From Fonticella tunisiensis (GTDB taxonomy: Bacteria > Bacillota > Clostridia > Clostridiales > Caloramatoraceae): a stretch of DNA of 64,000 nucleotides. This document shows, piece after piece, positions 33,350 to 51,409 of the stretch. How positions within the stretch are numbered: position 1 is the first letter of the stretch; each line of letters opens with the position of its first letter. Made by a program: the position numbers and the translations under genes. The notes below the pieces were generated by a model that did no database searches, was not told the DNA's origin, and saw only the letters and a list, made by a program, of their open reading frames with translations. The stretch lies in the NCBI RefSeq assembly GCF_004364155.1, contig NZ_SOAZ01000013.1:1-64000 (forward strand), in the 5' to 3' direction.

Positions 33350-34324
33350 ATGAAAAGGCCAAAAGTGTTTATTGCAAAACCAATTCCTGTTGAAGTAGAA
33401 AATTACATTGCCAGGCACTGCGATTATAAAAAATGGGAACATGAGAAAGAGATCCCCAGGGAAATTCTTTTAAAGGAAGTAGCAGACTGCGATGGGATCC
33501 TGTTAACAGGGCATAAAATAGACGAAGAGCTCTTATCAAATGCTCCCAATCTTAAAATAGTAAGTAATATTTCTGTTGGATATAATAATTTTGATATAGC
33601 TGCAATGAAAAAACACAACGTTATGGGAACACATACTCCATATGTACTTGATGAGACCGTTGCAGATCTAGTATTTGGATTAATACTAGCATCAGCAAGA
33701 AGAATTTCAGAACTTGACCGTTTTGTAAAGGAGGGTAAATGGGAAGCTGGGGATGATAAAATATTCTTTGGAGTAGATGTTCATCATGCTACCATAGGTA
33801 TCATAGGCATGGGCCGAATCGGCGAAGCTATTGCAAAGCGCGCAAAGTTAGGATTTGATATGAATGTCCTATACTATAACAGGACTAGAAAAACTGCCTT
33901 TGAGGAAAAAATGGGAGTTAAATATCGCGACCTTGAGGCTCTTCTTAAAGAATCGGATTTTATAGTGCTTATGACTCCACTTACAAAGGAAACATATCAT
34001 CTTATCGATTATAAGGAATTCAATCTTATGAAAAAGTCAGCCATATTTATTAATGCATCTAGAGGTCAGACAGTAAATGAGGAGGCTTTAATAGATGCAC
34101 TTCAGAATAAAAAAATACTGGGTGCAGGGCTTGATGTATTTGACAAAGAACCAATTGACCCCGATAATCCCCTTTTAAAGATGAATAATGTAGTAACTCT
34201 CCCCCATATAGGTTCAGCTACTGCAAAAACTCGTTTTGATATGGCCATGCTTGCTGCTAAAAATCTTGTCAAAGGAGTACTTGGAGAAGTACCACCAAAT
34301 CTTGTACCGGAGCTTAGAAAATAG
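33350..34324 (+). CDS. D-isomer-specific 2-hydroxyacid dehydrogenase (glyoxylate/hydroxypyruvate reductase type)
   Basis: NAD(P)-dependent dehydrogenase of 324 residues. The coenzyme fold shows 'ATIGIIGMGRIGEAIAKRAK', and the catalytic triad is in place: Arg in 'NASRGQTVNEEAL', Glu in 'DVFDKEPI' and His in 'LPHIGSAT'. The closest types are GhrB/GyaR-like glyoxylate, hydroxypyruvate or 2-ketogluconate reductases. It stands alone, convergent with the end of the inositol operon. A role in that pathway is possible but not indicated by transcription direction. Confidence 0.88.
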   Translation: MKRPKVFIAKPIPVEVENYIARHCDYKKWEHEKEIPREILLKEVADCDGILLTGHKIDEELLSNAPNLKIVSNISVGYNNFDIAAMKKHNVMGTHTPYVLDETVADLVFGLILASARRISELDRFVKEGKWEAGDDKIFFGVDVHHATIGIIGMGRIGEAIAKRAKLGFDMNVLYYNRTRKTAFEEKMGVKYRDLEALLKESDFIVLMTPLTKETYHLIDYKEFNLMKKSAIFINASRGQTVNEEALIDALQNKKILGAGLDVFDKEPIDPDNPLLKMNNVVTLPHIGSATAKTRFDMAMLAAKNLVKGVLGEVPPNLVPELRK

Positions 34325-34466: not shown

Positions 34467-35717
34467 TTATCTTTCTAAAACTGGTAGTGCCGATCCTCCA
34501 ACAGGCATCAATAGTACCTTTGAATCACTTCCAAGTTCCTCATAAGCCCTATCTAAGGCAGACTGTACATCAGAGAAAGGTTCCATAAAAATACTTTTAA
34601 CAAAGTCATGTTCTAAATCCGAAACCAAGTATATTTTTGCATTTTGAAGAACCATAGCTATTGCTGCTGCTTTATGTCCTCCAAGCCTGAAGTTTTTCTT
34701 TATCCTTTCAATTAATTTCCCCGGCTCCTTTGCCTCAAGTATCCACTCTTCAAATACCTTTTCCCCTAGGCCTTCCTTGCAGGATGCCACAAGTATAATT
34801 ATTCCACCTTTTCTTACTGCGTTCTTGGCATTATCAAGGGCTTTTTGAGCCTGATATAAGTTTAAGTCTTTAGGATATCCTCCTGCAGAAGCTATAACTA
34901 TATCAGCCTTTTCCTTAATATTTATCTTGTAAAAGGTATCTAAAAACCTGCACCCTTCCCTGTGTGCATCTATGTAATGTCCTGCAACAGCCTTTATTAT
35001 TTCCTTCTTTTCATTAAGTACTACGTTAACTATGAAATCTATTGGAACAAAATTTTCTACTGCGTCAATGTCTATCCTAACGGGATTTGTTGTAATATTT
35101 CCTGCTCTGGCTTCATCCTCAACCATTCTGCTGTGATTCGCCTGTATTGCCTGCCTTGTTGAAACTCCCGGCATTATAGCCTTTGCTCCTCCGCTATATC
35201 CTGCAAAATAATGGTATTCTATGTTTCCAAGACAAATGCGCCTGTCTGCTTCCACTACAGGCCTGAATATATCTACCGGAGTTCCGTTTTTGGTATATCC
35301 AAGATGAATATAGTCCTTTGAATCGCTATCTATACAAGATATTTTATTGTATATTTCCTCACCAACGAGATATTTTTTTTCCTCTTCAGTGTGGAACCTG
35401 TGACTTCCAAGGGCAAAAACAATCGTAATATCCTTGTCAGATACTCCAGCCCAATAAAGTTCCTCCAGTACAATTGGAAGGACTAGTTTGCTTGGCATGG
35501 GTCTTGTAATGTCGCTTGTTATAATTACCACCTTTTCCCCAGGCTTTACTATATCCCTGAGCCTTTTTGAGTTTATTGGATTTTCTATTGCTCTTTTAAC
35601 TTCTTCAACACCGGTTAACCCAATTTCTACTTTATTGGGTAAAAGTTCGCCTAAAAAATTTTTACTATCTATATTAAAAGTCATCCTGGTTTTTCCGAAT
35701 CCAATACTATATTCCAT
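34467..35717 (-). CDS. larA: LarA-family nickel-pincer 2-hydroxyacid racemase
   Basis: Protein of 416 residues of the LarA superfamily, which epimerises alpha-hydroxy acids with a nickel-pincer nucleotide cofactor. The cofactor and catalytic residues are in place: histidines 106/109 in 'FALGSHRFHTEEE', His169 in 'EYHYFAGYSGGAKAIMPG', the cofactor-tethering Lys179 and His195 in 'ANHSRM'. It is last in the inositol operon, 72 bases after iolG. Members acting on malate as well as lactate are known in this superfamily; the context here favours malate. The cofactor genes larB, larC and larE are not in the window. Confidence 0.88.
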   Translation of the reverse strand: MEYSIGFGKTRMTFNIDSKNFLGELLPNKVEIGLTGVEEVKRAIENPINSKRLRDIVKPGEKVVIITSDITRPMPSKLVLPIVLEELYWAGVSDKDITIVFALGSHRFHTEEEKKYLVGEEIYNKISCIDSDSKDYIHLGYTKNGTPVDIFRPVVEADRRICLGNIEYHYFAGYSGGAKAIMPGVSTRQAIQANHSRMVEDEARAGNITTNPVRIDIDAVENFVPIDFIVNVVLNEKKEIIKAVAGHYIDAHREGCRFLDTFYKINIKEKADIVIASAGGYPKDLNLYQAQKALDNAKNAVRKGGIIILVASCKEGLGEKVFEEWILEAKEPGKLIERIKKNFRLGGHKAAAIAMVLQNAKIYLVSDLEHDFVKSIFMEPFSDVQSALDRAYEELGSDSKVLLMPVGGSALPVLER

Positions 35718-35789: not shown

Positions 35790-36809
35790 TTATGCCTCTA
35801 TTTCTTCAACTCTAACAGGTCTTCCTTCTTCATAGGATTTCCTTGCAGCAAGTCCAATAAGAACAGGCTTTAATCCATCCATACCAGTTACCGGTGTTTC
35901 TGTATCATTTTCTATAGCGTTGAAGAAATCCCTGAGTTCTGCAACAAAGGAATCCTTATATCTTTCAAGGAAAAAATATTTTGGCTTTTCACTAATCACT
36001 CCATCTTCAGTGCTTAAAACGGCTGAAGAATCAGTATCGTTTGAAACTGTTACAGATCCCTTTGAACCAAATACCTCAACCCTCTGATCATAGCCATATG
36101 CAGCCCTTCTACTGTTGTCAATTACTCCAAGGGCTCCGTTTTTAAACTTGAGGCTTATAATAGCTGTATCAACATCTCCTGCTTCACCTATTGCAGGGTC
36201 AACAAGTACTGCTGCGTGGGTGAATACCTCTTCCACTTCGCTTCCAGATAAGTATCTTACCATATCAAAATCATGTATAGTCATATCAAGGAATATGCCG
36301 CCTGAGACCTTAACATATTCTATTGGAGGTGCCTGCGGATCCCTTGAGGTAACCTTTATTATATGTGGTTCTCCAACTTTTCCTTCCTTAACTAGATCAT
36401 GAACCTTTTTAAAGTTATGGTCAAAACGTCTGTTAAACCCAATCTGAAATTTTACCCCTGCCTTTTCTACAGCAGATAGCGCTTCCTTGATTTTATTAAC
36501 ATCGAAATCAATCGGCTTTTCACAGAAGATGTGTTTTCCCGCATTTGCAGCCTCGATAGTGAACTGTGCGTGGGTATTGGTTGATGAGCAAATTAAAACT
36601 GCTTCTATTTCAGGATCGTTTAGTATTTCTCTATGGTTGCTATATACATTTTCTATTCCAATACTGTTAGCCCAATCCTTAATTTTATCAGCAAATACAT
36701 CGGCAATAGCCTTTATTTCTACATTCTTAAAGTTGTTAACGATGTTTTCAGCATGAAGTTTTCCTATTCTTCCTGCTCCAATAATACCAACTTTTATTTT
36801 TCTTGTCAT
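35790..36809 (-). CDS. iolG: myo-Inositol 2-dehydrogenase
   Basis: Gfo/Idh/MocA oxidoreductase of 339 residues that oxidises myo-inositol to scyllo-inosose with NAD. The N-terminal Rossmann motif 'VGIIGAGRIGKLHAENI', the 'EKPIDF' lysine and 'GGIFLDMTIHDFDMVRYL' with the catalytic Asp-His are present. The TTG at 36824 lies in the GGAGGTG ribosome-binding site, so the ATG at 36809 is the start. It follows iolE directly in the operon. Confidence 0.93.
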   Translation of the reverse strand: MTRKIKVGIIGAGRIGKLHAENIVNNFKNVEIKAIADVFADKIKDWANSIGIENVYSNHREILNDPEIEAVLICSSTNTHAQFTIEAANAGKHIFCEKPIDFDVNKIKEALSAVEKAGVKFQIGFNRRFDHNFKKVHDLVKEGKVGEPHIIKVTSRDPQAPPIEYVKVSGGIFLDMTIHDFDMVRYLSGSEVEEVFTHAAVLVDPAIGEAGDVDTAIISLKFKNGALGVIDNSRRAAYGYDQRVEVFGSKGSVTVSNDTDSSAVLSTEDGVISEKPKYFFLERYKDSFVAELRDFFNAIENDTETPVTGMDGLKPVLIGLAARKSYEEGRPVRVEEIEA

Positions 36810-36824
36810 TTCAAACACCTCCAA

Positions 36825-37721
36825 TTATAGTCCTGTTTTTTCATTAATATATTTTCTAGCCTTAATTGCATATTCAAGGGGGTTTGCCTTTGCTGGATCC
36901 TGCTCAGCCTCAACAATAAACCAACCTTCATAGTTATTTTCATCGAGTATCTTAAATAAAGGCTCGAAATCGATCATACCATCTCCAGGTACTGTGAACA
37001 CTCCCTCTTTGACAGCGTTGAGGAAGCTCATCTTTTCTTTCTTAACCCTCTCAAACACATCCTTTCTTACATCTTTTAAGTGTACATGCTTTATTCTGTT
37101 TACATATTTTCTTAGTATCTTTTCGGGATTTTCACCTGAGAAGGTTAAATGCCCTGTATCAAATAATAGGTATACTAAATCTGGATCTGTCATCTCCATA
37201 AGCCTGTCGATTTCCTCTGTTGTTTGTACTCCTGTTCCCATGTGATGGTGGTAAACTATTTTCATCTCCTTTTCTGAAGCAAGCCTTCCAAGTTTCTCTA
37301 GTCCTCTTGCTAGTTTTTCCCATTCTTCCGTAGTAAACACAGGCTTTGCATCAAATATCGGAAGATCCATCTTACCCTGTATACTGTGCCCCTGTTCTGA
37401 GACAACTATAACCTTTGCCCCCATCTCATATAAAAAATCTCTGTGCTTTATAAATTCATTAACGGTTTCTTCAAGGGGTTTAGTCGTTAAAAATGCACTG
37501 AACCATGCACTTGCAATCTGAAGATTTCGAAGCTCTAAAGCTTTCTTTAAAACCTTTGTATCCCTTGGATACTTGTTTCCAACTTCACTTCCTGTAAAGC
37601 CTGCAAGGGCCATTTCACTTATACATTGCTCAAATGTATTTTCCCCTCCAAGCTCTGGCATATCGTCATTTGTCCAAGCTATTGGTGCAATGCCAAGCTT
37701 TACAGCGTCTTTTTTAAACAT
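36825..37721 (-). CDS. iolE: myo-Inosose-2 dehydratase
   Basis: TIM-barrel dehydratase of 298 residues that converts scyllo-inosose to 3D-(3,5/4)-trihydroxycyclohexane-1,2-dione. It matches IolE from the N-terminus ('[44 protein letters not shown]') through the metal-site segments '[12 protein letters not shown]', '[13 protein letters not shown]' and '[11 protein letters not shown]'. It lies between iolD and iolG. Confidence 0.96.
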
Positions 37722-37750: not shown

Positions 37751-39613
37751 TTAGAACTTCCTTGCCTTTTTAATTTCCTCTTCCATCTTCTTATGGGCTT
37801 CAAGTACTGTTTCTCTTTCAGCAACTTCAGGAACTCCAACTCTCCACCATGATTCATACCCATCTGTCATCGTCTTTGGAAGTACCTTTATATCAATTAA
37901 GGTTGAAACATTATCATGTTTAACCTTTTCAAGTGCATCCTTTAACTCTTCAATAGTTCTAACTGTATAAGCCTTTGCTCCATATGCCTTTGCATTTGCA
38001 GCAAAGTCAATAGGCATGTATTCTCCTGTTAATCTTCCCGTTTCTTTATCACGGAACCTGAACTCTGTTCCGAATGTAGGAATCCCCTGTGAGTTCTGCA
38101 AGTTTCTAATGCATTGGAATCCACTATTATCAAAAAGCAATACGTTTATTTTATATCCTTCCTGAATACTTGTTACAAGTTCTGAATGAAGCATTAGGTA
38201 GCTTCCATCCCCAACCATTGCATAAACCTCTTTGTCAGGTTCAGCCATCTTAACACCAAGGGCTCCTGTAACTTCATATCCCATGCACGAAAATCCGTAT
38301 TCCATGTGATACGTCTTAGGCTTTACAGGTCTCCAGAGCCTCTGAAGATCTCCTGGAAGGCTTCCTGAAGAACCTACTATTATTGAATCTTCACCTATTG
38401 CTTTATTTATTTCTCCAAGAACTCTTGTCTGTGATAATCCCTCTTCAAGTTCTATTGAATAAAGCCTATCTACCTCATTAACCCATTCTTCCTTAACTTT
38501 CTTTATTTCATCCCTGTACTCCGATTTATATCCTATTTTTTCAAGTTCTTCTCCTAACATTTTTAAAGTTTCCTTGGCATCTGCAACTATAAGTTTTGCA
38601 TTTAACTTTGATGCATCAAAGCCATTAACGTTTATGGTTAGAAATTCTGCCTCAGGGTTCTGAAACGCCCATTTTGATGTTGTAGTAAAGTCCGAAAACC
38701 TTGTTCCAACACCAATAATAAGGTCAGCTTCCCTTGCGATCCTGTTTGCAGCAAGGGTTCCTGTAACGCCCATTCCACCGAGGTTTAACGGGTGGTTCCA
38801 TGCAACTTCGCCCTTTCCTGCCTGGGTTTCACCAAAGGGTATATTGAACTTTTCAGCAAAGATCCTAAGTTCATTACCCGCTTCAGAATATCGAACTCCA
38901 CCACCACATATAATCATTGGCTTCTTCTTATTCTTTATTAGTTCAACTGCCCTTTCTATTTCACCTTTAGTTGGCAGTCTTCTTTCTATATGATGTACTC
39001 TCTTTTCAAAGAACTCTACAGGGTAGTCATAGGCCTCGGCCTGAACGTCCTGTGGAAGGCATATGGTAACCGTTCCAGTTTCTGCGGGATCTGTTAACAC
39101 CCTCATAGCGTTTATCATAGCGCTCATAAGCTGCTCTGGACGTTCAATTCTATCCCAGTACCTTGATACAGGTTTGAAAGCGTCATTTGCAGTTATTGAT
39201 ATGCTTGAAGGATTTTCAACCTGTTGAAGAACCGGGTCTGGCTGCCTGCAGGCAAATGTATCACCCGGGAATAATAGAAGAGGTATTCTGTTGACTGTTG
39301 CAGTACCTGCAGCTGTAACCATGTTAAGAGCTCCAGGCCCTATTGAGGATGTACATGCTATAATTTTCCTTCTATTCTTTTGCTTTGCATATGCAATTGC
39401 AGCATGGGCCATACCCTGTTCGTTTTTTCCCTGATAAAGGACTAGAGCCCCCTTATGCTCCTCAAGTGCCTGTCCAAGCCCTACAACGCATCCATGTCCA
39501 AATATTCCAAATATTCCTTTTACAAATTTATTTTCCTTTCCGTCAAATTCTACATACTGATTATCAAGGAACTTTACAAGGGCCTGTGCCATTGTTAGCC
39601 TTATGGTTTTCAT
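37751..39613 (-). CDS. iolD: 3D-(3,5/4)-trihydroxycyclohexane-1,2-dione acylhydrolase
   Basis: Thiamine-diphosphate enzyme of 620 residues that opens the cyclitol ring to 5-deoxy-D-glucuronate. The pyrimidine-binding glutamate domain ('[18 protein letters not shown]', '[18 protein letters not shown]') comes first, and the ThDP motif '[30 protein letters not shown]' lies near residue 470. It is in order with iolB, iolE and iolG. Confidence 0.97.
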
Positions 39614-39633: not shown

Positions 39634-40428
39634 TTATTTATCTGGCCAAATCTTTGCATCCTTATCTGTTACCCATAAATGTTCCGGTTCAAATATCGGG
39701 GTTATATATGGATTTCCATCTATATGTCTTATAACCCACAAATAATACATAGCATATCCTGGTGCCGTTGTTTGAGGGTGTGAAAGATCATCAACTATTT
39801 TTACTGTATCATTATTTTTGACCTGAACAACATCCTCACCTAACTGACAGAATCCATATCCGTTCTCGGGATAGAACTTATAAAAGTATATCTCAGGCTG
39901 TGGATGATGATGTGGAGGATAACTTGACCATTTTCCGGGGAAATCTATAACTTCCCCTAAAACCAGGTTAGAATACTTCGCATTTGAATAATCAAATACT
40001 GTCCTAACAATTCTTGTCGAAGTTTCTTTCATGGTTCCTTTTCCACGTTCTTCGCTTGCGCATTCCTTATCGGTGTAGAGCTTTGACTCAAACACAGTAT
40101 CATTTATGGTCTTTGTTACACAAATTTCCGAATCTTCTCCAACCCCTGTAATTTTCACTTCTACTCCCTGGGGTACATGAAGCACCCATGGGGCTTCATC
40201 AAAGCATGAATTTCTTTTAATGGTTTCCCTTTTTCCTTCCCATTCAAAGGTTATCTCACCTTGAACAAGCAAGAATGCTCTTTCCTTTTTCTCTGAGTCG
40301 ACTTCTGTCTGTCCCTTTCCAATCCTTAATATTCCAAAGTCCATCATTGTATTCTTTTCTTTATCATCAATAGTTGTTATTGGATTGTAACCATATTCAA
40401 ATGGCTTACCCTGTCTTATTCTATACAT
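39634..40428 (-). CDS. iolB: 5-Deoxy-glucuronate isomerase
   Basis: Bicupin metal isomerase of 264 residues that converts 5-deoxy-glucuronate to 2-deoxy-5-keto-D-gluconate. The histidine cluster '[18 protein letters not shown]' and the C-terminal '[16 protein letters not shown]' are characteristic. This is the last classical inositol enzyme encoded here; the kinase and aldolase that normally follow are absent. Confidence 0.96.
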
Positions 40429-40443
40429 CCCTTCACCCTCTTT

Positions 40444-41409
40444 CTATTTTCTAGCTATAACCTTTTTAACCTTTTCCATAATATCACTAGCTGTTAAGTT
40501 AAATCTTTCCCTCAGGTAGCTTTCAGGCCCAACTTCACCAAATCTGTCAAATACACCTACCCTTTCCATAGGAACAGGTCTATTCTCAACAAGCACCTCC
40601 GCTACAGCAGAACCAAGGCCGTTTATCACATTGTGGTTTTCGGCAGTAACTATTGCACCGGTCTCTTCTGCAGACTTTATTATAGTTTCCTTATCTATAG
40701 GCTTTAAAGTAAACATGTTAAGTACCCTTGCTGATATTCCATCCACTTCAAGGGCCTCCGCAGCCTTCAGGGCCTCATCCACCATAATTCCTGTAGCAAT
40801 TATAGTTACGTCCTTTCCATCCCTGAGCTGTACTCCTTTACCTATTTCAAAGGTTGAACCTTCTTCATATATTTTGACAGCATTTTTTCTAAGAAGCCTT
40901 GTGTAAAATACTCCATAAAGGTTTGCTGTTTGTTTTATTAAATCCCTAAGCATTACAGAATCGACGGGTTCAAGTATTGTTATATCAGGTATGTTTCTCA
41001 TTATCCCCATGTCCTCAAAGGGCATATGGGTTCCACCATTATACGAAGCAGTAACTCCAGGGTCGCTTCCTGTAATCCTTACGTTTAACCTCGAATAACC
41101 ACAGGATAGGAATATCTGATCAAAACATCTTCTTGTTGCAAATGGTCCAAAGCTGTGTGCAAAGGGAATTTTTCCTGTCGCAGATAGCCCTGCTGCAACG
41201 CCTATCATATTGGCTTCCTGTATTCCAACGTTGAAGGTTCTTTCTGGATAAGCCTTTAAAAATGGTTTCATCCCCATCGAACTCATAAGATCCGCGTCAA
41301 GTACAACAATTCTTTCATCCTTTTCTGCAAGCTCCATTAGTGTCTCACAATACGCATTTCTCATTTCCTTATCTTCTCTAATTCTATTTTTCGCTAATAT
41401 GGCGCTCAT
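40444..41409 (-). CDS. Transketolase, C-terminal subunit
   Basis: Pyrimidine-binding and C-terminal domains of a split transketolase, 321 residues. Typical segments are 'RIVVLDADLMSSMGMKPF', 'RTFNVGIQEANMIGVAAGLSATGKIPFAHSF' with the ThDP-activating glutamate, and the C-terminal 'GAIVTAENHNVINGLGSAVAEVL'. The ATG overlaps the stop of the N-terminal subunit gene (ATGA), so the two are made together. The inositol-operon setting suggests an unphosphorylated anionic ketose as donor rather than routine pentose-phosphate work. Confidence 0.92.
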   Translation of the reverse strand: MSAILAKNRIREDKEMRNAYCETLMELAEKDERIVVLDADLMSSMGMKPFLKAYPERTFNVGIQEANMIGVAAGLSATGKIPFAHSFGPFATRRCFDQIFLSCGYSRLNVRITGSDPGVTASYNGGTHMPFEDMGIMRNIPDITILEPVDSVMLRDLIKQTANLYGVFYTRLLRKNAVKIYEEGSTFEIGKGVQLRDGKDVTIIATGIMVDEALKAAEALEVDGISARVLNMFTLKPIDKETIIKSAEETGAIVTAENHNVINGLGSAVAEVLVENRPVPMERVGVFDRFGEVGPESYLRERFNLTASDIMEKVKKVIARK

Positions 41410-42254
41410 CTTGTCACCGCCTTTTCAAGTTTTTTATAAAGCTCATCAAGTGCTTCTTCCATCTGTTCCTTACTTACTGTCATATGATGGTTTGAAGCGG
41501 TGTTTTCTGCAAAGCTCCATCCTTTACCTTTTATAGTGTGAAGTACAATTACTGAAGGTTTTCCTTTAACTTCCTTTGCTCTTTCAATTGCTTCGTATAT
41601 TTCCTTTACGTTTGAGCCATCTACTTCTTGTCCATGCCATCCAAAGCTTTCAAACTTTGCTTTAATGTCTCCTAAGTCATTTATTTCCTTTGTAAATCCA
41701 TCAAGCTGTTTTTTGTTGTAATCTATAAAAGCAATCAAATTATCAAGTTTTTGCTGTGCAGCGTACAATGCTGCCTCCCATACCTGTCCCTCCTGGATTT
41801 CACCGTCACCAAGTATTAAATATGTATAATTCTCTCTTCCATCAAGCCTGTTTCCAAGGGCAACCCCAACTGCAAGTGATGAACCCTGTCCAAGGGAACC
41901 TGTTGTCATATCTACACCTATTGTTAGATTTCTGTCACAGTGGCTTGGAAGATGCGTTCCGGGTTTATTGAGTGTCATTAACTCCTCAAGTGGAAAATAT
42001 CCTCTAAGTGCAAGTGCTGCATAAACTGCAGGGCCCGCATGTCCCTTTGAGCAAATAAGCCAGTCCCTGTCATCCCATCTCGGATTTTTAGGATCTACAT
42101 TCATTACTCCACCATAGAGTACTGCAAGGGCATCGGCTATTGAAAGGGCTCCACCAACATGCCCAAACCCCAGGTTTCCAATTGCTTTCATGGCTTCTAT
42201 TCTTATCTTCAATGCGAATATTTCAAATTCTTTAATCTTTTCAGCACCTAACAT
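41406..42254 (-). CDS. Transketolase, N-terminal subunit
   Basis: ThDP-binding half of 282 residues. It shows 'GNLGFGHVGGALSIADALAVLYGGVMNVDPKNP', 'SKGHAGPAVYAALA', 'TGSLGQGSSLAVGVALG' and the ThDP/Mg motif 'LGDGEIQEGQVWEA' at residues 148-161. Split transketolases occur in dedicated catabolic clusters such as those for apiose or sulfosugars, as well as in general metabolism. A 33-base hairpin lies between it and the upstream PGK-like gene. Confidence 0.93.
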   Translation of the reverse strand: MLGAEKIKEFEIFALKIRIEAMKAIGNLGFGHVGGALSIADALAVLYGGVMNVDPKNPRWDDRDWLICSKGHAGPAVYAALALRGYFPLEELMTLNKPGTHLPSHCDRNLTIGVDMTTGSLGQGSSLAVGVALGNRLDGRENYTYLILGDGEIQEGQVWEAALYAAQQKLDNLIAFIDYNKKQLDGFTKEINDLGDIKAKFESFGWHGQEVDGSNVKEIYEAIERAKEVKGKPSVIVLHTIKGKGWSFAENTASNHHMTVSKEQMEEALDELYKKLEKAVTR

Positions 42255-42333: not shown

Positions 42334-43596
42334 TTAGAACTTTTTATTGTATGCATTTTTCATGGCCTCAATAAGAGGCATTTTAACTCCTGATAGGAAT
42401 CTAACCATTGCTCCTCCTGCAGTACATACATAGTTTATATTGCTAGTATCTATAAAACGCTGAGCAGCTGATACAGTATCCCCTCCACCTATTACAGAGT
42501 AACCTTCAGCTTCCGCTATGGCATTCCATATCGCCTTTGTTCCATTTTCAAATAGCTTGTTTTCATATACTCCTGCAGGGCCGTTAACAAAGATGGTTCC
42601 AGCCTTTGCTATTTCTTCCTTGAAAATTTCTATCGTCCTGCTTCCAATATCCATGCAAAGTTCATCTGTTGGTAAATCCTCAATTGATATTTCCCGCCTT
42701 ACTCCATCCTTTTCAAAGGCAAGGTCAACGGGAACTACTATTTTTTCAGGATAATCTGAAAGGTATTCCTTTGCAGGTTTTATAAATACATCAAGGGACC
42801 TGTCTTTTATAAATTTCTCATTTTTTGAGCCAAGATCATACCCTTTAGCCATGAGCATAATATGTCCCGTTACACCACATGCAAGAATCTTATCTGCAGC
42901 ACCATTCTGGAGAACCTGCTTCATCATACCAAAGGCATCAGAAATCTTAAGTCCTCCAAGTACAAATACCGCAGGCCTGTCAGGAGATTCCATAACCTTG
43001 GTGAGAGCTTCTATTTCCTTCATCATGAGCATTCCACCTGCCGAAGGAAGTACTTCCTGAAAAGCTACCATTGAAGGAGCATTTCTATGTGCTGCTGCAA
43101 AGGCATCGTTAATATAGTAATCTACAAGTGGTGCCAGGCTTCTAACAAGATAGGTATTAAGCATTTCAGATGGCCTAAGCTTTACAACGTCTTCAAAGGT
43201 TGAAATCTCCTCTGTTAAGTATCTTAAGTTTCCAAGGAGAATTATTTCTCCCGTTTTTAGGTTTTTAATTGCTTCCTGGGCAGCTGGGCCGCATACATCG
43301 TCTATATACTTAACCTCTACGCCAAGCTTTTGTGACAGCTTTTCGGCATGCTCATTCATTGGAATCAGGTTATGATAATCCAGTGTATCTCCCTGATGAG
43401 CAATCATAGCAATTTTAGCACCTTTTTCTATAAGGTATTTTATTGTTGGTATGCTCATATTTATTCTGTTTTCGTTTACAATCTTTTTAGTTTCGTGATC
43501 AAGAGGTGAGTTAATATCTACTCTGAGTAATACGGTTTTACCGGTATAATTAAATTCTTCCATTGATCTTATTCCAGTTATTACTTTTCCATCCAT
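42334..43596 (-). CDS. Divergent archaeal-type phosphoglycerate kinase homologue
   Basis: Kinase of 420 residues closer to archaeal PGK ('TVLLRVDINSPLD', 'YYINDAFAAAHRNAPSM', 'GGGDTVSAAQRF', 'CTAGGAMVRFLSGVKMP') than to the usual bacterial enzyme. Asp27, Asn29, Arg44, His67, Arg125 and Arg171 of the acyl-phosphate site are kept. The basic-patch arginine of HxGR (HQSRPG in archaeal enzymes) is Asp70 in 'AHQGDTLD'. Loss of that arginine, which helps hold the 3-phosphate of 1,3-bisphosphoglycerate, suggests a different acyl phosphate. It overlaps the GAPDH-like gene by 16 bases. The proposed substrate, malyl phosphate, is inferred. Confidence 0.85.
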   Translation of the reverse strand: MDGKVITGIRSMEEFNYTGKTVLLRVDINSPLDHETKKIVNENRINMSIPTIKYLIEKGAKIAMIAHQGDTLDYHNLIPMNEHAEKLSQKLGVEVKYIDDVCGPAAQEAIKNLKTGEIILLGNLRYLTEEISTFEDVVKLRPSEMLNTYLVRSLAPLVDYYINDAFAAAHRNAPSMVAFQEVLPSAGGMLMMKEIEALTKVMESPDRPAVFVLGGLKISDAFGMMKQVLQNGAADKILACGVTGHIMLMAKGYDLGSKNEKFIKDRSLDVFIKPAKEYLSDYPEKIVVPVDLAFEKDGVRREISIEDLPTDELCMDIGSRTIEIFKEEIAKAGTIFVNGPAGVYENKLFENGTKAIWNAIAEAEGYSVIGGGDTVSAAQRFIDTSNINYVCTAGGAMVRFLSGVKMPLIEAMKNAYNKKF

Positions 43597-44609
43597 TTTC
43601 CCATCCCCAAATATTTATTTGTTAAAGCAACTGCTTCAAGTCTATCTGTCTGCATTTCCATTGCAGCTCTTATTGCATCCATATTTTCAGGAATAACAAC
43701 AGCTTCCTGAGGAATATTTATTGCAAACATTATATCCTTTCCAGAGTTTACTATTGTCTCTTCAAAGACTGCAATCTCATACATGTCTCCCCTTGGATTT
43801 CCAAGGTCTCTCGCATATCTAAAGAGTGAAGCATTACCTAAGAAGCCATCAGCAAGTCTTACCACTCGAATTCTTGGATGTTGATTGAAGTATTTTAATA
43901 CTTCTTCCTTACCTATTTCTCTTTTTGGTGTTGCAACAACTGTAATTATATGTCCATGGGTTACTGGTGTGTGAACAAGTATTCCTGTTGCATCAACATG
44001 AGGCATAATTGTCATAAGGTCAACTGCTTGATGATTTGGCGCCTTGTCAACCTGAAGCGCATTTGTAAGTCCTCTATGATAATCACCTGGGTCAGCAACA
44101 CGTCTTATAATTGTTATTGCTACCTTTTCAATTCCAACCTCCCTGTCAAGGCAGTCAACTGCTCTAATAAGACCTGTTGTATTGCAGGAAGTAAGCTTTA
44201 AAAATTGCTTTCCTAACCCTTTCTCATAATTTGCGTATCCATGGAAGAATACATCTGCAACATCGTTTTTCTCTCCACCCTGGAATATTGCTTTCTTATT
44301 ATATTTCTTGTATAATTCCTTGTTTCTGGCTCCAACTCCAGCACTTGTTGCATCAAGTATTACATCTACCTTTTGAACAAGGTCCTCAAGGGTTCCAGAA
44401 ACAGGGATTCCTGCCTTATCAAATAACTCTTTGTTTTCTGGTACTGCAATGTATAAGTCATAGGGCATTCCTTTTTCCTTTAACGCCCTAACTGCTAGGG
44501 TTGGAGATACATCTGCAACTCCAACAAGCTCCATATCTTCCTGAAGAGCAACTCCATCGGCCAATCTCTGTCCAATGACACCATAACCAACAACTCCAAC
44601 TTTTACCAT
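43581..44609 (-). CDS. Divergent archaeal-type (type II) glyceraldehyde-3-phosphate dehydrogenase homologue
   Basis: Aldehyde dehydrogenase of 342 residues of the archaeal GAPDH family: Rossmann start 'VKVGVVGYGVIGQRLADGV', nucleophile Cys142 in 'LTSCNTTGLIRA', and the C-terminal 'VIPENMDAIRAAMEMQ'. Archaeal enzymes carry a GP(V/I)NAI...SHHGPDV stretch near the substrate. Here it reads 'RGLTNALQVDKAPNHQAVDL', so the phosphate-side residues differ. The oxidising and phosphorylating chemistry is probably kept while the substrate changes. The ATG at 44609 follows AAGGAGG; the TTG at 44615 is too close. It is coupled to the PGK-like gene. Confidence 0.85.
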   Translation of the reverse strand: MVKVGVVGYGVIGQRLADGVALQEDMELVGVADVSPTLAVRALKEKGMPYDLYIAVPENKELFDKAGIPVSGTLEDLVQKVDVILDATSAGVGARNKELYKKYNKKAIFQGGEKNDVADVFFHGYANYEKGLGKQFLKLTSCNTTGLIRAVDCLDREVGIEKVAITIIRRVADPGDYHRGLTNALQVDKAPNHQAVDLMTIMPHVDATGILVHTPVTHGHIITVVATPKREIGKEEVLKYFNQHPRIRVVRLADGFLGNASLFRYARDLGNPRGDMYEIAVFEETIVNSGKDIMFAINIPQEAVVIPENMDAIRAAMEMQTDRLEAVALTNKYLGMGKWMEK

Positions 44610-44628
44610 AAGCAAATACCTCCTTAAA

Positions 44629-45864
44629 TTATTTGTTAATAGCTTCCAAAAGATTTAATGTATGTTCAGCTACCCACTCAGGAGTAACATCGGTTCTCCT
44701 TGCAACGCCTGTATCAATAGCCGCCTTTGCTACATAGGCTGCAACCTTTGGTGCAATCCTTAAATCAAAGGCCTTTGGGATTATGTATTCTTCATTAAGT
44801 TCATCTTCTGAAATTATTTCTGCTATCGCCTTTGCAGCTGCTATTTTCATTTCATCGTTTATTTCCCTTGCTCTAACATCTAAGGCACCTCTAAATATTC
44901 CAGGGAAAGCTAAAACGTTATTTATTTGATTTGGAAAATCGGATCTTCCAGTTCCAATGATCCTTGCTCCACCTTCTTTTGCTTCATCCGGGAATATTTC
45001 CGGCACTGGATTTGCCATTGCAAATATTATTGCATCCTTATTCATCGTTTTAACCATTTCTGAAGTTAGAACTCCAGGGGCTGAAACACCTATGAACACA
45101 TCTGCTCCTTTAATTACATCTCCTAAACTTCCCTTTAAATTTTCAGGGTTAGTAATATGAGCAAGTTTTTCTTTAGCAGAATCTGAATATTTTATATCCC
45201 TATGTATTGCACCCTTTCTATCACATACTATAATGTTTTTAGTTTCCATAGATAATAGAAGCTTTGTAATAGCTGCTCCTGCAGCCCCGGCACCACTTAC
45301 AACAACCTTTAAATCTTCAAATCTCTTATCCACAATTTTCAATGCATTAATAAGGCCTGCAAGGGTTACAACTGCCGTTCCATGCTGATCGTCATGGAAT
45401 ACTGGAATATTGCATACTTCTTTAAGCCTTTCTTCTATTTCAAAACATTCCGGTGCTTTAATATCCTCTAAATTAATTCCTCCAAATCCTGGCTCCATGA
45501 GTTTTACTGTTTCAACAATTTTGTTCACATCCTTTGTGTTAAGGCATATAGGAAATGCATCAACTCCAGCAAAGGATTTAAATAAAACTGCCTTTCCCTC
45601 CATTACAGGAAGCCCCGCACCTGCACCAATATCTCCAAGACCTAAAACTGCTGTACCATTGGTTACTACAGCCACCCAGTTCCCCTTTGAGGTATATTCG
45701 TAAATTTTTTCAGGGTCATCTTTAATAACAAGGCATGGCTCTGCAACCCCCGGTGTGTATGCTAAGGTTAAATCTTCCTTAGTTTTGACCTGAACCTTTG
45801 AATGAAGTGCTATCTTTCCTTCATTATCTTTGTGAAATTTTAAGGCTCTTTCCTTTAAATCCAT
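44629..45864 (-). CDS. NAD(P)-dependent malic enzyme
   Basis: Oxidatively decarboxylates (S)-malate to pyruvate. The 411 residues include 'AYTPGVAEPCLVI', 'VTNGTAVLGLGDIGAGAGLPVMEGKAVLFK' and 'HDDQHGTAVVTLAGLINALK', plus the Rossmann segment 'KVVVSGAGAAGAAITKLLL'. It is the short bacterial type without a C-terminal phosphotransacetylase domain. The TTG at 45879 falls in the GGGAGG site, so the ATG at 45864 is used. Its place inside an inositol operon is unusual and supports malate as a pathway intermediate. Confidence 0.93.
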   Translation of the reverse strand: MDLKERALKFHKDNEGKIALHSKVQVKTKEDLTLAYTPGVAEPCLVIKDDPEKIYEYTSKGNWVAVVTNGTAVLGLGDIGAGAGLPVMEGKAVLFKSFAGVDAFPICLNTKDVNKIVETVKLMEPGFGGINLEDIKAPECFEIEERLKEVCNIPVFHDDQHGTAVVTLAGLINALKIVDKRFEDLKVVVSGAGAAGAAITKLLLSMETKNIIVCDRKGAIHRDIKYSDSAKEKLAHITNPENLKGSLGDVIKGADVFIGVSAPGVLTSEMVKTMNKDAIIFAMANPVPEIFPDEAKEGGARIIGTGRSDFPNQINNVLAFPGIFRGALDVRAREINDEMKIAAAKAIAEIISEDELNEEYIIPKAFDLRIAPKVAAYVAKAAIDTGVARRTDVTPEWVAEHTLNLLEAINK

Positions 45865-45922
45865 TAAATTACCTCCCAACTACATCAGTCCCTTTCTTAA
45901 GCACTTGATATGAATAAATTAT

Positions 45923-46942
45923 TTATTCATTTAAGAAAACTAACTTATTTTTCTCAAAGGATTCTTTACATGCATAGGCTATTTCAGTGGATTTTACTCC
46001 ATCATCAACCACAACCCCTGGTTTTCTATTTTCAAGGATACAATTTACAAATTCCTGCACCTCTGCAACATATGCCTGTTCAAATCTTTCAAGAAATCCG
46101 GAAACACATTCCTGAACTGCTCCCTTTTCATCAAAAATAGTTACCAGGTTTTTCTGTGGTACCGTTCCTATTCTAAGAGAACCTTCTGTTCCTATAATTT
46201 CGGTTTCTATGTGATAACCATGAGCACATGTTCTTCCTGCATAAAACATCCCGATTGCATCGTTTTGAAACTGAATTAATGCAGCACCGTTGTCTGCATC
46301 GTTATACTTTTTAAATTCTGGATATGCATAGCAGCTCCCAACAGCATATACGCTTTTTGCTTCTGATCCAAGGTACCATCTTGCTAGGTCTATGTCATGT
46401 ATTGCCATATCAAGGAATAGTCCTCCACTTTTTTCTGAGAAGGCTATTGCTCCTTTAACTGCTTTTACAGGATCAAGTCCATAGCATCTAATAAGGAATG
46501 GCTTTCCAATTGCTCCTTCTTCAATTTTCTTCTTTGCGTATGCATAGGATGCATCATACCTTCTCATAAATCCCAGCATGAAAACTTTATCTTGATGCTG
46601 CTCAACTATTTCCTTTGCCCTAATAACCTCTTCCATATTTACACCCAAGGGCTTTTCACTAAATACATGATATCCTGCCTTAAGTGCCTCTTCTATCTGC
46701 CTGCAGTGCTCTGTTGAGGAAGATGCTATGAAAATTGCATCCAGTTCATCATTTTTAAGCATTTCTGAAAAGTCTGTGTAACCGTATTTTATTCCCCAGT
46801 TCCTTTGAACATCTTCCACTTCTTCCTTAACAATGCTGCATGCTGCTACAAGTTCAGCATTTGGAATTCTAAATGCAATGTTTTCAGCATGCTTTTTGCC
46901 AAGCCTTCCAAGGCCAACAATACCTATCCTAACCTTTTTCAT
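45923..46942 (-). CDS. Second Gfo/Idh/MocA dehydrogenase, IolX-like inositol dehydrogenase
   Basis: Oxidoreductase of 339 residues with 'RIGIVGLGRLGKKHAENI', 'SEKPLGVNMEEV' and 'GGLFLDMAIHDIDLARWYLG'. It is distinct from the IolG at the other end of the operon. Together with iolI next door, a role on scyllo- or D-chiro-inositol is likely, feeding other inositol isomers into the common inosose pool. The exact stereoisomer cannot be read from the sequence. Confidence 0.83.
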   Translation of the reverse strand: MKKVRIGIVGLGRLGKKHAENIAFRIPNAELVAACSIVKEEVEDVQRNWGIKYGYTDFSEMLKNDELDAIFIASSSTEHCRQIEEALKAGYHVFSEKPLGVNMEEVIRAKEIVEQHQDKVFMLGFMRRYDASYAYAKKKIEEGAIGKPFLIRCYGLDPVKAVKGAIAFSEKSGGLFLDMAIHDIDLARWYLGSEAKSVYAVGSCYAYPEFKKYNDADNGAALIQFQNDAIGMFYAGRTCAHGYHIETEIIGTEGSLRIGTVPQKNLVTIFDEKGAVQECVSGFLERFEQAYVAEVQEFVNCILENRKPGVVVDDGVKSTEIAYACKESFEKNKLVFLNE

Positions 46943-46967: not shown

Positions 46968-47804
46968 TTATTCTATTTCAAAATATTTTCCTACAGCTTC
47001 TTCAGTTTTTTCTTTGCCTACTTTTATTGTCTTTTCAGCATCCCACTCCCAGTATTCCGGCCTGAAAAGTTCTACAGACGCCATTTCACTATATCCTATT
47101 TCCTTAAGTGTACTTAATATTGAATCTAAATCTACAACACCTTCACCAGGCCAGAGTCTTTTATCATCTCTTAAGGCCCCAACTGGCAGATCCTCACTAT
47201 CATCGATATGGAAAATAAATATTTTTTCAGGATCAGCCTTCTGTAAATCTTCTATCCTTGATCCCATAGCATGGAAGTGGAAACAATCCAGTACCATTCC
47301 AACGCTGTCCCTATCTAATGTCTTTACAATATCATATGCTTGTCCAAAGGTATTTACTGAACAGTTTGGGTAACCTACAAACTCATAGGCAAGTTTTACT
47401 CCATACTCATCTGCTATATCAGCCAGCTCATTTAATCTTTTTATTGACTCTTCCTTAATTTCAGCTTTTGTACGACTCCCAACATCAAATGTAGGAACTA
47501 CAACGATTTTTTTACAGTTAATCTTTTCACCAACTTCACATAAAAATTTCAAATCATCTTTTATTTCCTGATATCCTGCTTCATCTCTGAAGGTAATAAA
47601 TTCTAATGCATTGAAGGCATAGGGTTTTATTCTACTATTTTTGAAAAAGTTCACAAGATCATCAACGGTATGGGTTTCAAGATATTCCTTGAGCTTATCT
47701 AATCTTATTTCTATAAACTCATATCCGTGCTTCTCACACAGCTCAAGGTCCTTTTCTAATGTAGAGTTTTTAAGGGTTGTAGCTTCATTAAAACAGATTT
47801 TCAT
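46968..47804 (-). CDS. iolI: Inosose isomerase
   Basis: TIM-barrel isomerase of 278 residues that interconverts 2-keto-myo-inositol and 1-keto-D-chiro-inositol. It resembles Bacillus IolI closely along its length ('MKICFNEATTLKNS', 'DLELCEKHGYEFIEIR', 'LDCFHFHAMGS', 'FIFHIDDSEDLPVGALRDDKRLWPGEG', 'SVELFRPEYWEW'). The ATG at 47804 follows GAGGTGG by four bases and starts the conserved sequence; the longer frame to 47861 is upstream noise. It lies between the ABC permease and the IolX-like gene. Confidence 0.94.
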   Translation of the reverse strand: MKICFNEATTLKNSTLEKDLELCEKHGYEFIEIRLDKLKEYLETHTVDDLVNFFKNSRIKPYAFNALEFITFRDEAGYQEIKDDLKFLCEVGEKINCKKIVVVPTFDVGSRTKAEIKEESIKRLNELADIADEYGVKLAYEFVGYPNCSVNTFGQAYDIVKTLDRDSVGMVLDCFHFHAMGSRIEDLQKADPEKIFIFHIDDSEDLPVGALRDDKRLWPGEGVVDLDSILSTLKEIGYSEMASVELFRPEYWEWDAEKTIKVGKEKTEEAVGKYFEIE

Positions 47805-47823
47805 AATACCACCTCTATATAAA

Positions 47824-48822
47824 TTATCTATTTTTTTTCTTATCCAATAGAACAGCACCAACTATGATTGCACCCTTTAAAACCTGCTGCCAGTATGCTG
47901 ATACCTGAAGAAGGTCAAGTCCATTGTTTAAAACTCCCATTATAAGGGCCCCAATTATTGTTCCTGGTATTGTACCTACTCCTCCCGAAAGGCTTGTACC
48001 CCCGATAACCGCTGAGGCAATAGCATCAAGCTCATAACTAACACCTGCTGTTGGCTGACCGGCACTAAGCCTTGAAGCTAACACTATACCTGCAAGACCT
48101 GATAGAAGTCCTGCATATGTATAAACAAGAACTAAATACTTTCTAACATTTATACCTGATACAACCGCTGCCTGTGCATTTCCTCCTATAGCATATATAT
48201 ATCTTCCGAACTTAGTATGTTTTAATAAAATGTGGGAAATTACTGCCGTTAATAACATTACGTATATGGGGAAAGGTACCCCTAAGAAATATCCCCCACC
48301 TATAAATTCAAATGATTCTGATAGATTTGTGATTGGACGACCATCGCTGAAGATTAATGCAAAGCCCCTTGCTGCGATCATCATACCAAGTGTAGGTATA
48401 AAGGCAGGTATTTCTCCGAAGGCTGTAAACGCTCCATTTATACTACCTGCTATTGCACCTACTAATAAACCTACAATAATAGAAACTATTAATGGATATT
48501 GGTTTGGATGTGCAAAGCTTGTGGCGATAACTCCTGCTAAAGCTAATACTGAACCCGATGATAGATCTATTCCTGTAGTTATGATAACCATAGTTACTCC
48601 AAAACCAATTATGGCAATAACTGATATCTGTCTAACAACATTCATCAGGTTTCTTGTTGTTAAAAATGCTGGAGATAAGACCGTCATTAAAACAACCATT
48701 GCCAGCAGCACAAGGGCCATTCCATGACGTCGAAATAAAATTTTTATTTTATCCTTTTTATTTATTTCATGTTTATTATTTTTTATTGAAGTTTTATTTG
48801 CCAGGTTGTTCATTTTTTTCAC
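47824..48822 (-). CDS. Sugar/inositol ABC transporter permease (RbsC family)
   Basis: Integral membrane subunit of 332 residues with eight to ten helices and the family segments '[25 protein letters not shown]', '[21 protein letters not shown]' and '[30 protein letters not shown]'. It is encoded directly after its ATPase. With no other sugar cluster nearby, inositol is the likely substrate, in place of the IolT-type symporter of bacilli. Confidence 0.92.
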
Positions 48823-48844
48823 TCCTTTTCATTATAGTTAAGTA

Positions 48845-50344
48845 CTAGCTTGCCGCTCCTGTTGCATAAGACATTATTTTTTCCTGGGTAGCTTCCTTTC
48901 TAGTTAATTCGCCAGTAATTTTTCCTTCATGCATAACAACAATTCTATCACTCATTCCAAGTATTTCAGGAAGTTCTGAAGAAATCATTATTATTGCCTT
49001 TCCTTGTTTCGCCAACTTACTCATTAATCTATGTATTTCGGCTTTTGCCCCTACATCAATACCTCTAGTTGGCTCATCCAAAATTAGTATGTCCGGATCT
49101 GTTAATAACCATCTGGCAATTAAAACTTTTTGCTGGTTACCACCGCTTAAGTTGTTAACAATCTGATCCAGTCCCGGTGTTTTAATATTTAACAGTTTTA
49201 CCTCTTCCTCACAATCCTTATTTACTTTTTTGCTATTAATAAACAACTTTTCAATGTAATTATTAATACTTGAGATATACATGTTATCCTTAACCGAAAG
49301 TGGAAGAAATAAACCTGAAATTTTTCTATCCTCTGTTAAAAATGCTAATTTATGTTTTATAGCATCGGCAGGTGAATTTATATGTACTTGCTTTCCTTTA
49401 ATATAAATTTCCCCTTTATCCGCTTTTACAACTCCAAACAGGCTTTCCATAATTTCAGAGCGACCCGATCCCATTAGACCTGCCAAGCCTAATATCTCAC
49501 CCTTACGTACCTTTAGATTAATATCATAAAATTTACCTGCTCTTGTGAAATTCTTTATTTCTAATAAAACTTTTCCAATTTCAGCTTCTTCTTTAGGGAA
49601 TAACTGAGTTATCTCCCTTCCAACCATCATTTCAATCAACTTTTCTTTTGTTATATTTTTAACCGAGCACGTATCAACATAACTTCCATCTCTAAATACC
49701 GTTATCTCATCAGCAATTTTAAATATTTCATCCATTTTATGGGATATGTAGATGATAGATACGCCTTTTTTCTTTAACCACTCAATAATTTTAAACAAAT
49801 GTTCTACTTCTCTTTCTGTTATGGCTGATGTAGGTTCATCCATAATAATAAGCTCCGAATTATAGGAAATAGCCTTTGCTATTTCAACCATTTGTGTATA
49901 AGCTGTAGAAAGTTCCTTCATCTTCATCTTTGGATTAAGGGATATTTCCAGCTGTTTGAGAAGCTCTTCCGTCTTTCTTTCCATTTCCCTATCATTTACC
50001 CAGAATGTCTTTTTATAAAGGGATTCCCTTCCTAAAAAAATATTTTCTGCAATTGTCATGTAGGGTACAGGGCTCAATTCCTGATGAATCATTGAAATTC
50101 CAGCCTGCAGCGCGTCGTGCGTGGATTTAAACTTTACTTCTTTGCCTTTAAACTTTATAGTTCCGCCATCTGGTCGATACATACCAATTAATATTTTCAT
50201 TAAAGTAGATTTTCCCGCACCATTTTCCCCCATCAAAGCATGGACGGTACCCTTTTTAACCTTCAGTTGAACGTTGTTCAGTGCTCGAACTCCAGGAAAT
50301 GTTTTTGATATATTCTTCATTTCAAGTACATATTCAGCATGCAC
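48845..50344 (-). CDS. Sugar/inositol ABC transporter ATP-binding protein (RbsA/MglA family)
   Basis: Tandem ATPase of 499 residues. Domain 1 has Walker A '[16 protein letters not shown]' and '[11 protein letters not shown]'. Domain 2 has the degenerate A-site '[18 protein letters not shown]' with '[16 protein letters not shown]' and '[16 protein letters not shown]', as usual for the CUT2 class. The frame is open up to 50380, but AGAGGTG precedes a GTG at 50344, which I take as the start. A 17-base-pair hairpin separates it from the binding-protein gene. Confidence 0.92.
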
Positions 50345-50365
50345 CAAAATCACCTCTTTCATTTC

Positions 50366-50403
50366 AATAATGAATACCAATCTTTTGATTGGTATTCATT
50401 ATT
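50366..50403 (-). other. Strong hairpin between the binding-protein and ATPase genes
   Basis: Perfect 17-base arms (AATAATGAATACCAATC and its complement) with a four-base loop and no U tract. Such structures commonly protect the upstream binding-protein mRNA so that this subunit is made in excess. Confidence 0.75.
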
Positions 50404-50422
50404 GATATTTTAGGAATTATCT

Positions 50423-51409
50423 TTATTTGTAACGTTTTGCGTATTCTTCAACCTTATCCTTTGTTACCAATTCAAATGGAATTATATATTCCTTGTCAAC
50501 CTTCTCGCCATTTACAACCCTTGCAGCGACTTCAATTGATTTTCTCCCCTGTCCCTTAGCATCCTGGAATACAGTATAGTTCTCTTTTCCAGCCTTTACA
50601 TATTCAAGAGCTTCTGGTGTAGCATCAATACCTGAAACAACTACCTTACCAAGTAAACCTGCATCTTCAAGAGCCTTGATTGCACCAAGTGCCATCTCAT
50701 CGTTGTTAGCAAGTATTCCGTCTATCTTAATCTTTGACTGAATCCAGTTTTCAACTAATTTCATGGCCTTATCTCTGTACCAGTCACCTGTATTTTTAAC
50801 AACTATCTTCATGTCAGGATATTTCTTTAAAATGTTTTCATATCCCTGTCCTCTTCTTATTTGTGGTTCATGTCCGTATGTTCCATCTAAAACAGCTATA
50901 TTGCCCTTCCCGTTAAGTAACTTAGCCATCTGCTCTGCCTGAATTTCTCCGGCATTAATATCATCTGAACCAACATATGCTACCCCCTTCGATTCATCTG
51001 GTAGTTTTCTGTTTACTGCAATGATTGGAATACCCGCCTTATTTATTTCTTCAATCATTGACTTGCCTGCTTCTCTGTCAACTACGAATAAAACTATAGC
51101 ATCTACCTTCTGAGCAATTAAGTTTTCTGCCTGTGACATTTGCTTCTGAGGGTCATATTTAGCATCCATATACACTACATCAATGTTTTGAAGCTTGCTT
51201 GCTGCTTCCTTCATTCCGTCCATAACATAAACCTGGAACTGGTCACTGAAGTCTGCCATTAAAACGCCTATTGTCTTTTTCTTTCCGTCTTTATTCTGAT
51301 CTCCACCAGCTTGTCCAGAATTTGCAGGCTTGCCTGTGCATCCTGCAAGTAAAGTTACGCTAAAAAGCACTGTCAATAAGATTGAGATTAGTTTTTTCGG
51401 ATTCCCCAC
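50423..51409 (-). CDS. Sugar/inositol ABC transporter substrate-binding lipoprotein (RbsB family)
   Basis: Extracellular lipoprotein of 328 residues with a signal peptide ending in the lipobox 'LLAGC' (Cys24). A type I periplasmic-binding fold follows ('KKTIGVLMADFSDQFQVYVMDGMKEAA', 'GIPIIAVNRKL', 'GILANNDEMALGAIKALEDAG'). The GTG start lies seven bases after AAGGGGG. It is the first structural gene of the operon; the ligand is inferred to be inositol from the downstream genes. Confidence 0.92.
   Translation of the reverse strand: MGNPKKLISILLTVLFSVTLLAGCTGKPANSGQAGGDQNKDGKKKTIGVLMADFSDQFQVYVMDGMKEAASKLQNIDVVYMDAKYDPQKQMSQAENLIAQKVDAIVLFVVDREAGKSMIEEINKAGIPIIAVNRKLPDESKGVAYVGSDDINAGEIQAEQMAKLLNGKGNIAVLDGTYGHEPQIRRGQGYENILKKYPDMKIVVKNTGDWYRDKAMKLVENWIQSKIKIDGILANNDEMALGAIKALEDAGLLGKVVVSGIDATPEALEYVKAGKENYTVFQDAKGQGRKSIEVAARVVNGEKVDKEYIIPFELVTKDKVEEYAKRYK

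Follow-up and report, generated by a model that had tools for sequence, protein, structure and literature searches.

A LarA-superfamily gene as the predicted malate racemase of a proposed transketolase-dependent inositol operon in Fonticella tunisiensis and other anaerobic bacteria

The window analyzed here is a 64,000-nucleotide stretch of Fonticella tunisiensis DNA (contig NZ_SOAZ01000013.1, positions 1 to 64,000); the source genome measures 3.1 Mb and is 99.5% complete. A run of minus-strand genes leads from an ABC transporter to a LarA-superfamily gene, which starts 72 bp after iolG and closes the iol operon. These genes, preceded by a regulator gene, are listed below in their order on the minus strand.

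51912-52958, minus strand: LacI-family regulator (assigned from translation)
47824-51409, minus strand: sugar ABC transporter, comprising permease, ATPase and substrate-binding protein (assigned from translations)
46968-47861, minus strand: xylose-isomerase-like TIM barrel, IolE/IolI-like (Pfam PF01261)
45923-46942, minus strand: second Gfo/Idh/MocA dehydrogenase (Pfam)
44629-45879, minus strand: malic enzyme (NADP-malic-enzyme families, E = 3e-126)
43581-44615, minus strand: type II (archaeal-type) GAPDH homologue, proposed phosphorylating malate-semialdehyde dehydrogenase (NF003251, 429 bits, cut-off 185)
42334-43596, minus strand: phosphoglycerate-kinase (PGK) homologue with R62D, proposed malyl-phosphate kinase making ATP (best PDB match 2cun)
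41406-42254, minus strand: transketolase N-terminal subunit (NF004559, 260 bits, first half of the profile)
40444-41409, minus strand: transketolase C-terminal subunit, proposed to cleave 2-deoxy-5-keto-D-gluconate (NF004559, 267 bits, second half of the profile)
39634-40428, minus strand: divergent IolB-like 5-deoxyglucuronate isomerase (TIGR04378, 103 bits, below the cut-off of 205)
37751-39613, minus strand: iolD, 3D-(3,5/4)-trihydroxycyclohexane-1,2-dione hydrolase (TIGR04377, 1009 bits, cut-off 715)
36825-37721, minus strand: iolE, myo-inosose-2 dehydratase (TIGR04379, 448 bits, cut-off 290)
35790-36824, minus strand: iolG, inositol 2-dehydrogenase (TIGR04380, 498 bits, cut-off 355)
34467-35717, minus strand: larA, predicted LarA-superfamily malate racemase of the LarAH6/Mar2 type, last gene of the operon (profile, structure match and residues)

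The iolD gene of the operon encodes the sole IolD of the genome. Matching ABC transporter genes adjoin the operons of most relatives, and a LacI-family homologue adjoins some of them. On the opposite strand, larA is adjoined by a gene for a D-isomer-specific 2-hydroxyacid dehydrogenase (33350-34324, plus strand), a family of which a member also adjoins the GAPDH/PGK block of another locus (L064). A scan for promoters and terminators found sites no more numerous than in shuffled sequences.

The larA gene is an intact open reading frame of 416 amino acids that spans exactly positions 34467-35717. Its product matches the Lar_N domain (247 bits) and passes the NCBIfam model NF052593, 'nickel-dependent malate racemase, LarAH6 family' (596 bits, cut-off 500), and it falls below the NCBIfam cut-offs for the LarAH5, lactate and LarAH10 groups. 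The best solved structure was that of Mar2 (LarAH6) from Thermoanaerobacterium thermosaccharolyticum (PDB 6d6z, E = 8.5e-123; also 7s91), which belongs to the same subgroup and is 49% identical. Mar2 racemizes malate and not lactate, with a KM of 0.38 mM for L-malate (PMC7583248); a preliminary description of this DNA had noted that malate-active LarA homologues are known. Malate racemases (MARs) form the largest group of the LarA superfamily and are marked by H/Q-K at LarA positions 358/359 (PMC11770544). The same description had placed at the operon end a LarA-superfamily gene with the cofactor lysine and catalytic histidines intact, and residue comparison confirmed this: the equivalents of D72, R75, H108, H174, K184, H200 and K298 of L. 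plantarum LarA are all kept. The NPN-binding, catalytic and GxHK residues are the same as in Mar2; the malate signature reads G-G-H-K, with H-K at positions 358/359, and Q is found at 297. Three LarA paralogues in the same genome carry Y-S, W-E and Y-A at 358/359 and lack the signature, and one of them is of the lactate type and adjoins a lactate-permease-like gene. One feature speaks against the assignment: the window protein differs from Mar2 in having Phe at the position of Lys173 (Y-F after the second catalytic His versus Y-K in Mar2). This Phe is common to all 42 operon LarAs, at a site that varies among MARs (PMC11770544). A further difference is the location in an inositol operon, which gives the window protein a defined metabolic place; the in vivo role of Mar2 was left open in the 2020 paper (PMC7583248).

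Absence of the nickel-pincer cofactor genes, which had been named beforehand as an argument against such a function, does not apply here, since larB, larC and larE were all identified in the genome. larB and larC are adjacent on contig C32 (18147-18767 and 18805-20040), and larE lies on contig C12 (39413-40192; 369 bits, cut-off 150).

The preliminary description had also proposed that the transketolase step gives the (R) configuration, hence D-malate. We calibrated a script with D-glyceraldehyde, L-lactate and D-fructose; for 2-deoxy-5-keto-D-gluconate, counted from the ketol end, it gave 3S,4R as for D-fructose, the form used by transketolases. By formal derivation, (R)-3-hydroxy-4-oxobutanoate remains once the C2 unit is lost, and its oxidation yields (R)-malate, that is, D-malate. 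The proposed configuration was thus confirmed, provided that the transketolase step itself is right. The substrate of malic enzymes is (S)-malate. The malate-racemase interpretation is supported by the agreement of family assignment, specificity residues, cofactor genes and stereochemistry, and on this sequence evidence the product of 34467-35717 is very probably a malate racemase.

In the pathway that we propose, inositol would be converted by IolG, IolE, IolD and the IolB-like isomerase to 2-deoxy-5-keto-D-gluconate. The split transketolase would then pass the C5-C6 ketol unit of this compound on to a sugar phosphate acceptor, and what remains would be malate semialdehyde, (R)-3-hydroxy-4-oxobutanoate. 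Oxidation and phosphorylation of this aldehyde would fall to the type II GAPDH homologue, and the PGK homologue would form ATP and D-malate. LarA would then invert C2, converting D-malate to L-malate, which malic enzyme would decarboxylate to pyruvate. We show here the gene identities, conservation, cofactor genes, signature residues, the dehydrogenase substitution described below and the formal stereochemistry, and we infer each catalytic step. Judged from the genes, an NPN malate racemase is likely, with fairly high confidence, to provide the D- to L-malate step at the end of a putative kinase- and aldolase-free transketolase route of inositol degradation.

To characterize the occurrence of the operon, we searched 195 genomes and found a type II GAPDH 84-88% identical to the window copy in eight others. 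In each of the eight, genes for PGK, split transketolase and iolB/D/E/G accompany it in the same operon, and seven of these operons close with a larA of 73-76% identity. The eighth, Clostridium ganghwense (G123, L029/L056), has no larA in the operon. In its stead, iolE and iolD flank a gene whose product scores above the cut-off of the tartrate dehydrogenase model TIGR02089 (521 bits against 470) and has a tartrate dehydrogenase/decarboxylase as its best solved relative. A Thermotogae metagenome-assembled genome (L078) likewise lacks larA in the operon and has a TIGR02089-family gene in place (545 bits). The tartrate dehydrogenase family includes D-malate dehydrogenases, which convert D-malate directly to pyruvate. 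In both genomes, the best LarA found outside the operon lacks the malate signature, and the C. ganghwense-type dehydrogenase had no match in the window genome at the threshold used. That two alternative ways of disposing of D-malate occur in the same operon is the strongest evidence that D-malate is an intermediate of the pathway.

A named scan yielded 80 loci, spread over Bacillota, Spirochaetota, Chloroflexota, Thermotogota, Atribacteria, Kiritimatiellota, Poribacteria and further groups, and carriers of the operon include Clostridium, Caloramator, Spirochaetota, Chloroflexota and other anaerobes. Forty clusters had at least two iol genes: 26 contained larA, two a tartrate/D-malate dehydrogenase, one a LeuB-like gene and 11 neither. 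The dehydrogenase of L129 was considered as a D-malate dehydrogenase and rejected, as NCBIfam names it LeuB. Among the 11 clusters with neither, larA is nearby in two (in the same locus in L115 and just past the locus end in L128), in seven the locus extends no more than about 1 kb past the last operon gene, and for one (L101) a signature-bearing LarA is present elsewhere in the genome. The operon of Pelosinus (L122) has neither larA nor dehydrogenase within the flank of about 2.3 kb that was read, and the best LarA of that genome has no signature; so far, this is the sole real exception. In the preliminary description the gene was called a stereochemically required malate racemase, and while the racemase and the stereochemistry hold, 'required' is too strong in view of the part of the Pelosinus operon that was seen. 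The malate signature is kept in all 42 operon or module LarAs compared, some of which are only 30% identical. Among these proteins, a Spirochaete lineage (30-36% identical) forms its own fully supported branch in an unrooted tree. Malic enzyme is absent from the cluster in many loci, which speaks against the proposed route, as does the sub-cut-off score of the IolB-like protein.

Several loci showed additional genes. In Clostridium pascui (L025:16823-18567) and Clostridium sp. BSD9I1 (L128), iolG and larA are separated by two further genes, for an SDR and an IolE-like TIM-barrel protein, which perhaps serve other inositol stereoisomers. In a Spirochaete cluster (L066:12063-13172), GAPDH-II, PGK, malic enzyme, larA and a transketolase made as a single chain are found together with 3-dehydro-scyllo-inosose hydrolase (IolN), the Thermotoga-type inositol enzyme. 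A protein of the Asp/Glu/hydantoin-racemase family is encoded between the PGK and malic enzyme genes in two loci (L064:12290-12949 and L126:11882-12538), and in L064 it stands where larA is missing. A GAPDH-II/PGK/malic enzyme/larA block was also found in four loci with no transketolase or iol genes (L090:8638-14775, L052:8519-13691, L058:1-4134 and L126:9419-15092), and such a block may also handle malate semialdehyde of other origin. The copy in L090 comes immediately after a gene of the GABA-transaminase type, a context that suggests 4-amino-3-hydroxybutyrate as one further source of the semialdehyde. In seven loci of uncultured Clostridia (L100, L102, L104, L107, L110, L114 and L119), the GAPDH-II/PGK pair has other neighbors, with no iol genes or larA; in L100 these are a phosphoesterase, two FAD-dependent proteins and an APH/fructosamine-kinase-like protein.

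In a rival reading, LarA would be a malate racemase that helps the cell to use D- or L-malate from outside in general, and its link to the inositol operon would be loose. Among the 195 genomes, larA of at least 69% identity was present in eight of the nine with the operon GAPDH versus four of the 186 without it (Fisher P = 1e-10, with ancestry ignored). The gene is therefore not exclusive to the operon, and these four relatives with a close larA and no GAPDH operon speak for an external-malate role, as do some non-operon larA genes beside dicarboxylate-transporter-like genes, one of which is then followed by a gene for a malic-enzyme-like protein. However, larA recurs in the operon across several phyla and in two LarA lineages, it is swapped in place for a gene of the D-malate/tartrate dehydrogenase family, and no recognized dicarboxylate transporter was seen in the window operon; we consider this role improbable. 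It is less probable still that the window LarA racemizes or epimerizes another 2-hydroxyacid, such as lactate, glycerate or tartrate. Members of the family are partly promiscuous, and malate racemases also epimerize tartrate weakly (PMC11770544), whereas the malate signature, the LarAH6 score and the separate lactate-type paralogue beside its permease-like gene in the same genome argue against such a specificity.

A different objection concerns the pathway rather than LarA: transketolase, GAPDH and PGK might act on ordinary sugar phosphates while inositol follows the classical kinase-aldolase route, so that D-malate would not be an intermediate. PfkB-family kinases occur in the genome, the best of them matching the IolC model with 189 bits, and C. 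ganghwense has two iolC genes, each near an additional iolD and apart from the transketolase operon, in canonical iol operons with an aldolase-like gene. However, that best match is below the IolC cut-off of 300, and no IolC exceeded it in eight of the nine operon genomes, each of which has IolD; C. ganghwense is the ninth. The window genome also has an ordinary GAPDH and a glycolytic PGK elsewhere, on contig C25. At position 62 (Bacillus numbering) this glycolytic PGK keeps Arg, a residue assigned to 3-phosphoglycerate binding, and 73 of the 75 operon PGKs have Asp (R62D). D21, N23, R36, H59, R118 and R151 are kept in the operon PGKs. P63T accompanies R62D in nearly all operon PGK homologues. 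The operon GAPDHs show many fixed differences from two archaeal enzymes. R62D and the GAPDH differences fit a change of substrate, although they are no proof of it. That the GAPDH-PGK-malic enzyme-larA block also stands apart from any transketolase or iol genes, in one case next to a GABA transaminase, further disfavors ordinary sugar phosphates as substrates. A classical route in which D-malate is no intermediate appears unlikely, and we prefer the transketolase route.

The proposed route shares steps with several known systems. IolG, IolE, IolD and IolB steps are common to the classical iol pathway of Bacillus and Anaerostipes (PMC8355322), which proceeds through IolC and IolJ to malonate semialdehyde, whereas the window route would use transketolase cleavage and give malate as the C4 product. 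Transketolase action on the anionic 2-deoxy-5-keto-D-gluconate has a precedent in the sulfo-TK pathway of sulfoquinovose degradation, in which the transketolase SqwGH cleaves a ketose with an anionic group instead of phosphate (PMC9594981); there, however, the substrate is another one and the C4 aldehyde undergoes a second ketol cleavage, in contrast with the oxidation to malate proposed here. In L-carnitine degradation, malic semialdehyde is oxidized specifically to D-malate, which D-malate dehydrogenase converts to pyruvate (PMC11353897). The common point is the conversion of malic semialdehyde to D-malate, which needs entry to central metabolism; the carnitine route uses an aldehyde dehydrogenase without ATP yield and D-malate dehydrogenase, whereas the window operon would employ enzymes of the GAPDH and PGK types together with a racemase and malic enzyme. 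We found no description of a transketolase or D-malate route of inositol degradation in the open literature; subscription journals lay outside the search, and a prior description is possible. The transketolase branch of inositol breakdown is apparently undescribed, and we rate the route as a new variant of inositol catabolism built around an already known enzyme family.

Taken together, we consider it reasonably probable that these operons represent an anaerobic inositol pathway that is widespread and so far undescribed. In it, transketolase would replace kinase and aldolase, GAPDH and PGK homologues would have been switched to malate semialdehyde and malyl phosphate with a gain of ATP, and either a nickel racemase or a D-malate dehydrogenase would solve the stereochemical problem. 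If true, this would give malate racemases a concrete physiological role and bacteria a second way of inositol degradation, one that gains an additional substrate-level phosphorylation and saves the ATP that IolC consumes. It would also mean that two neofunctionalized glycolytic enzymes are mislabeled by genome annotation, and, given the spread of the operon among anaerobes, flux estimates for inositol and phytate fermentation could change.
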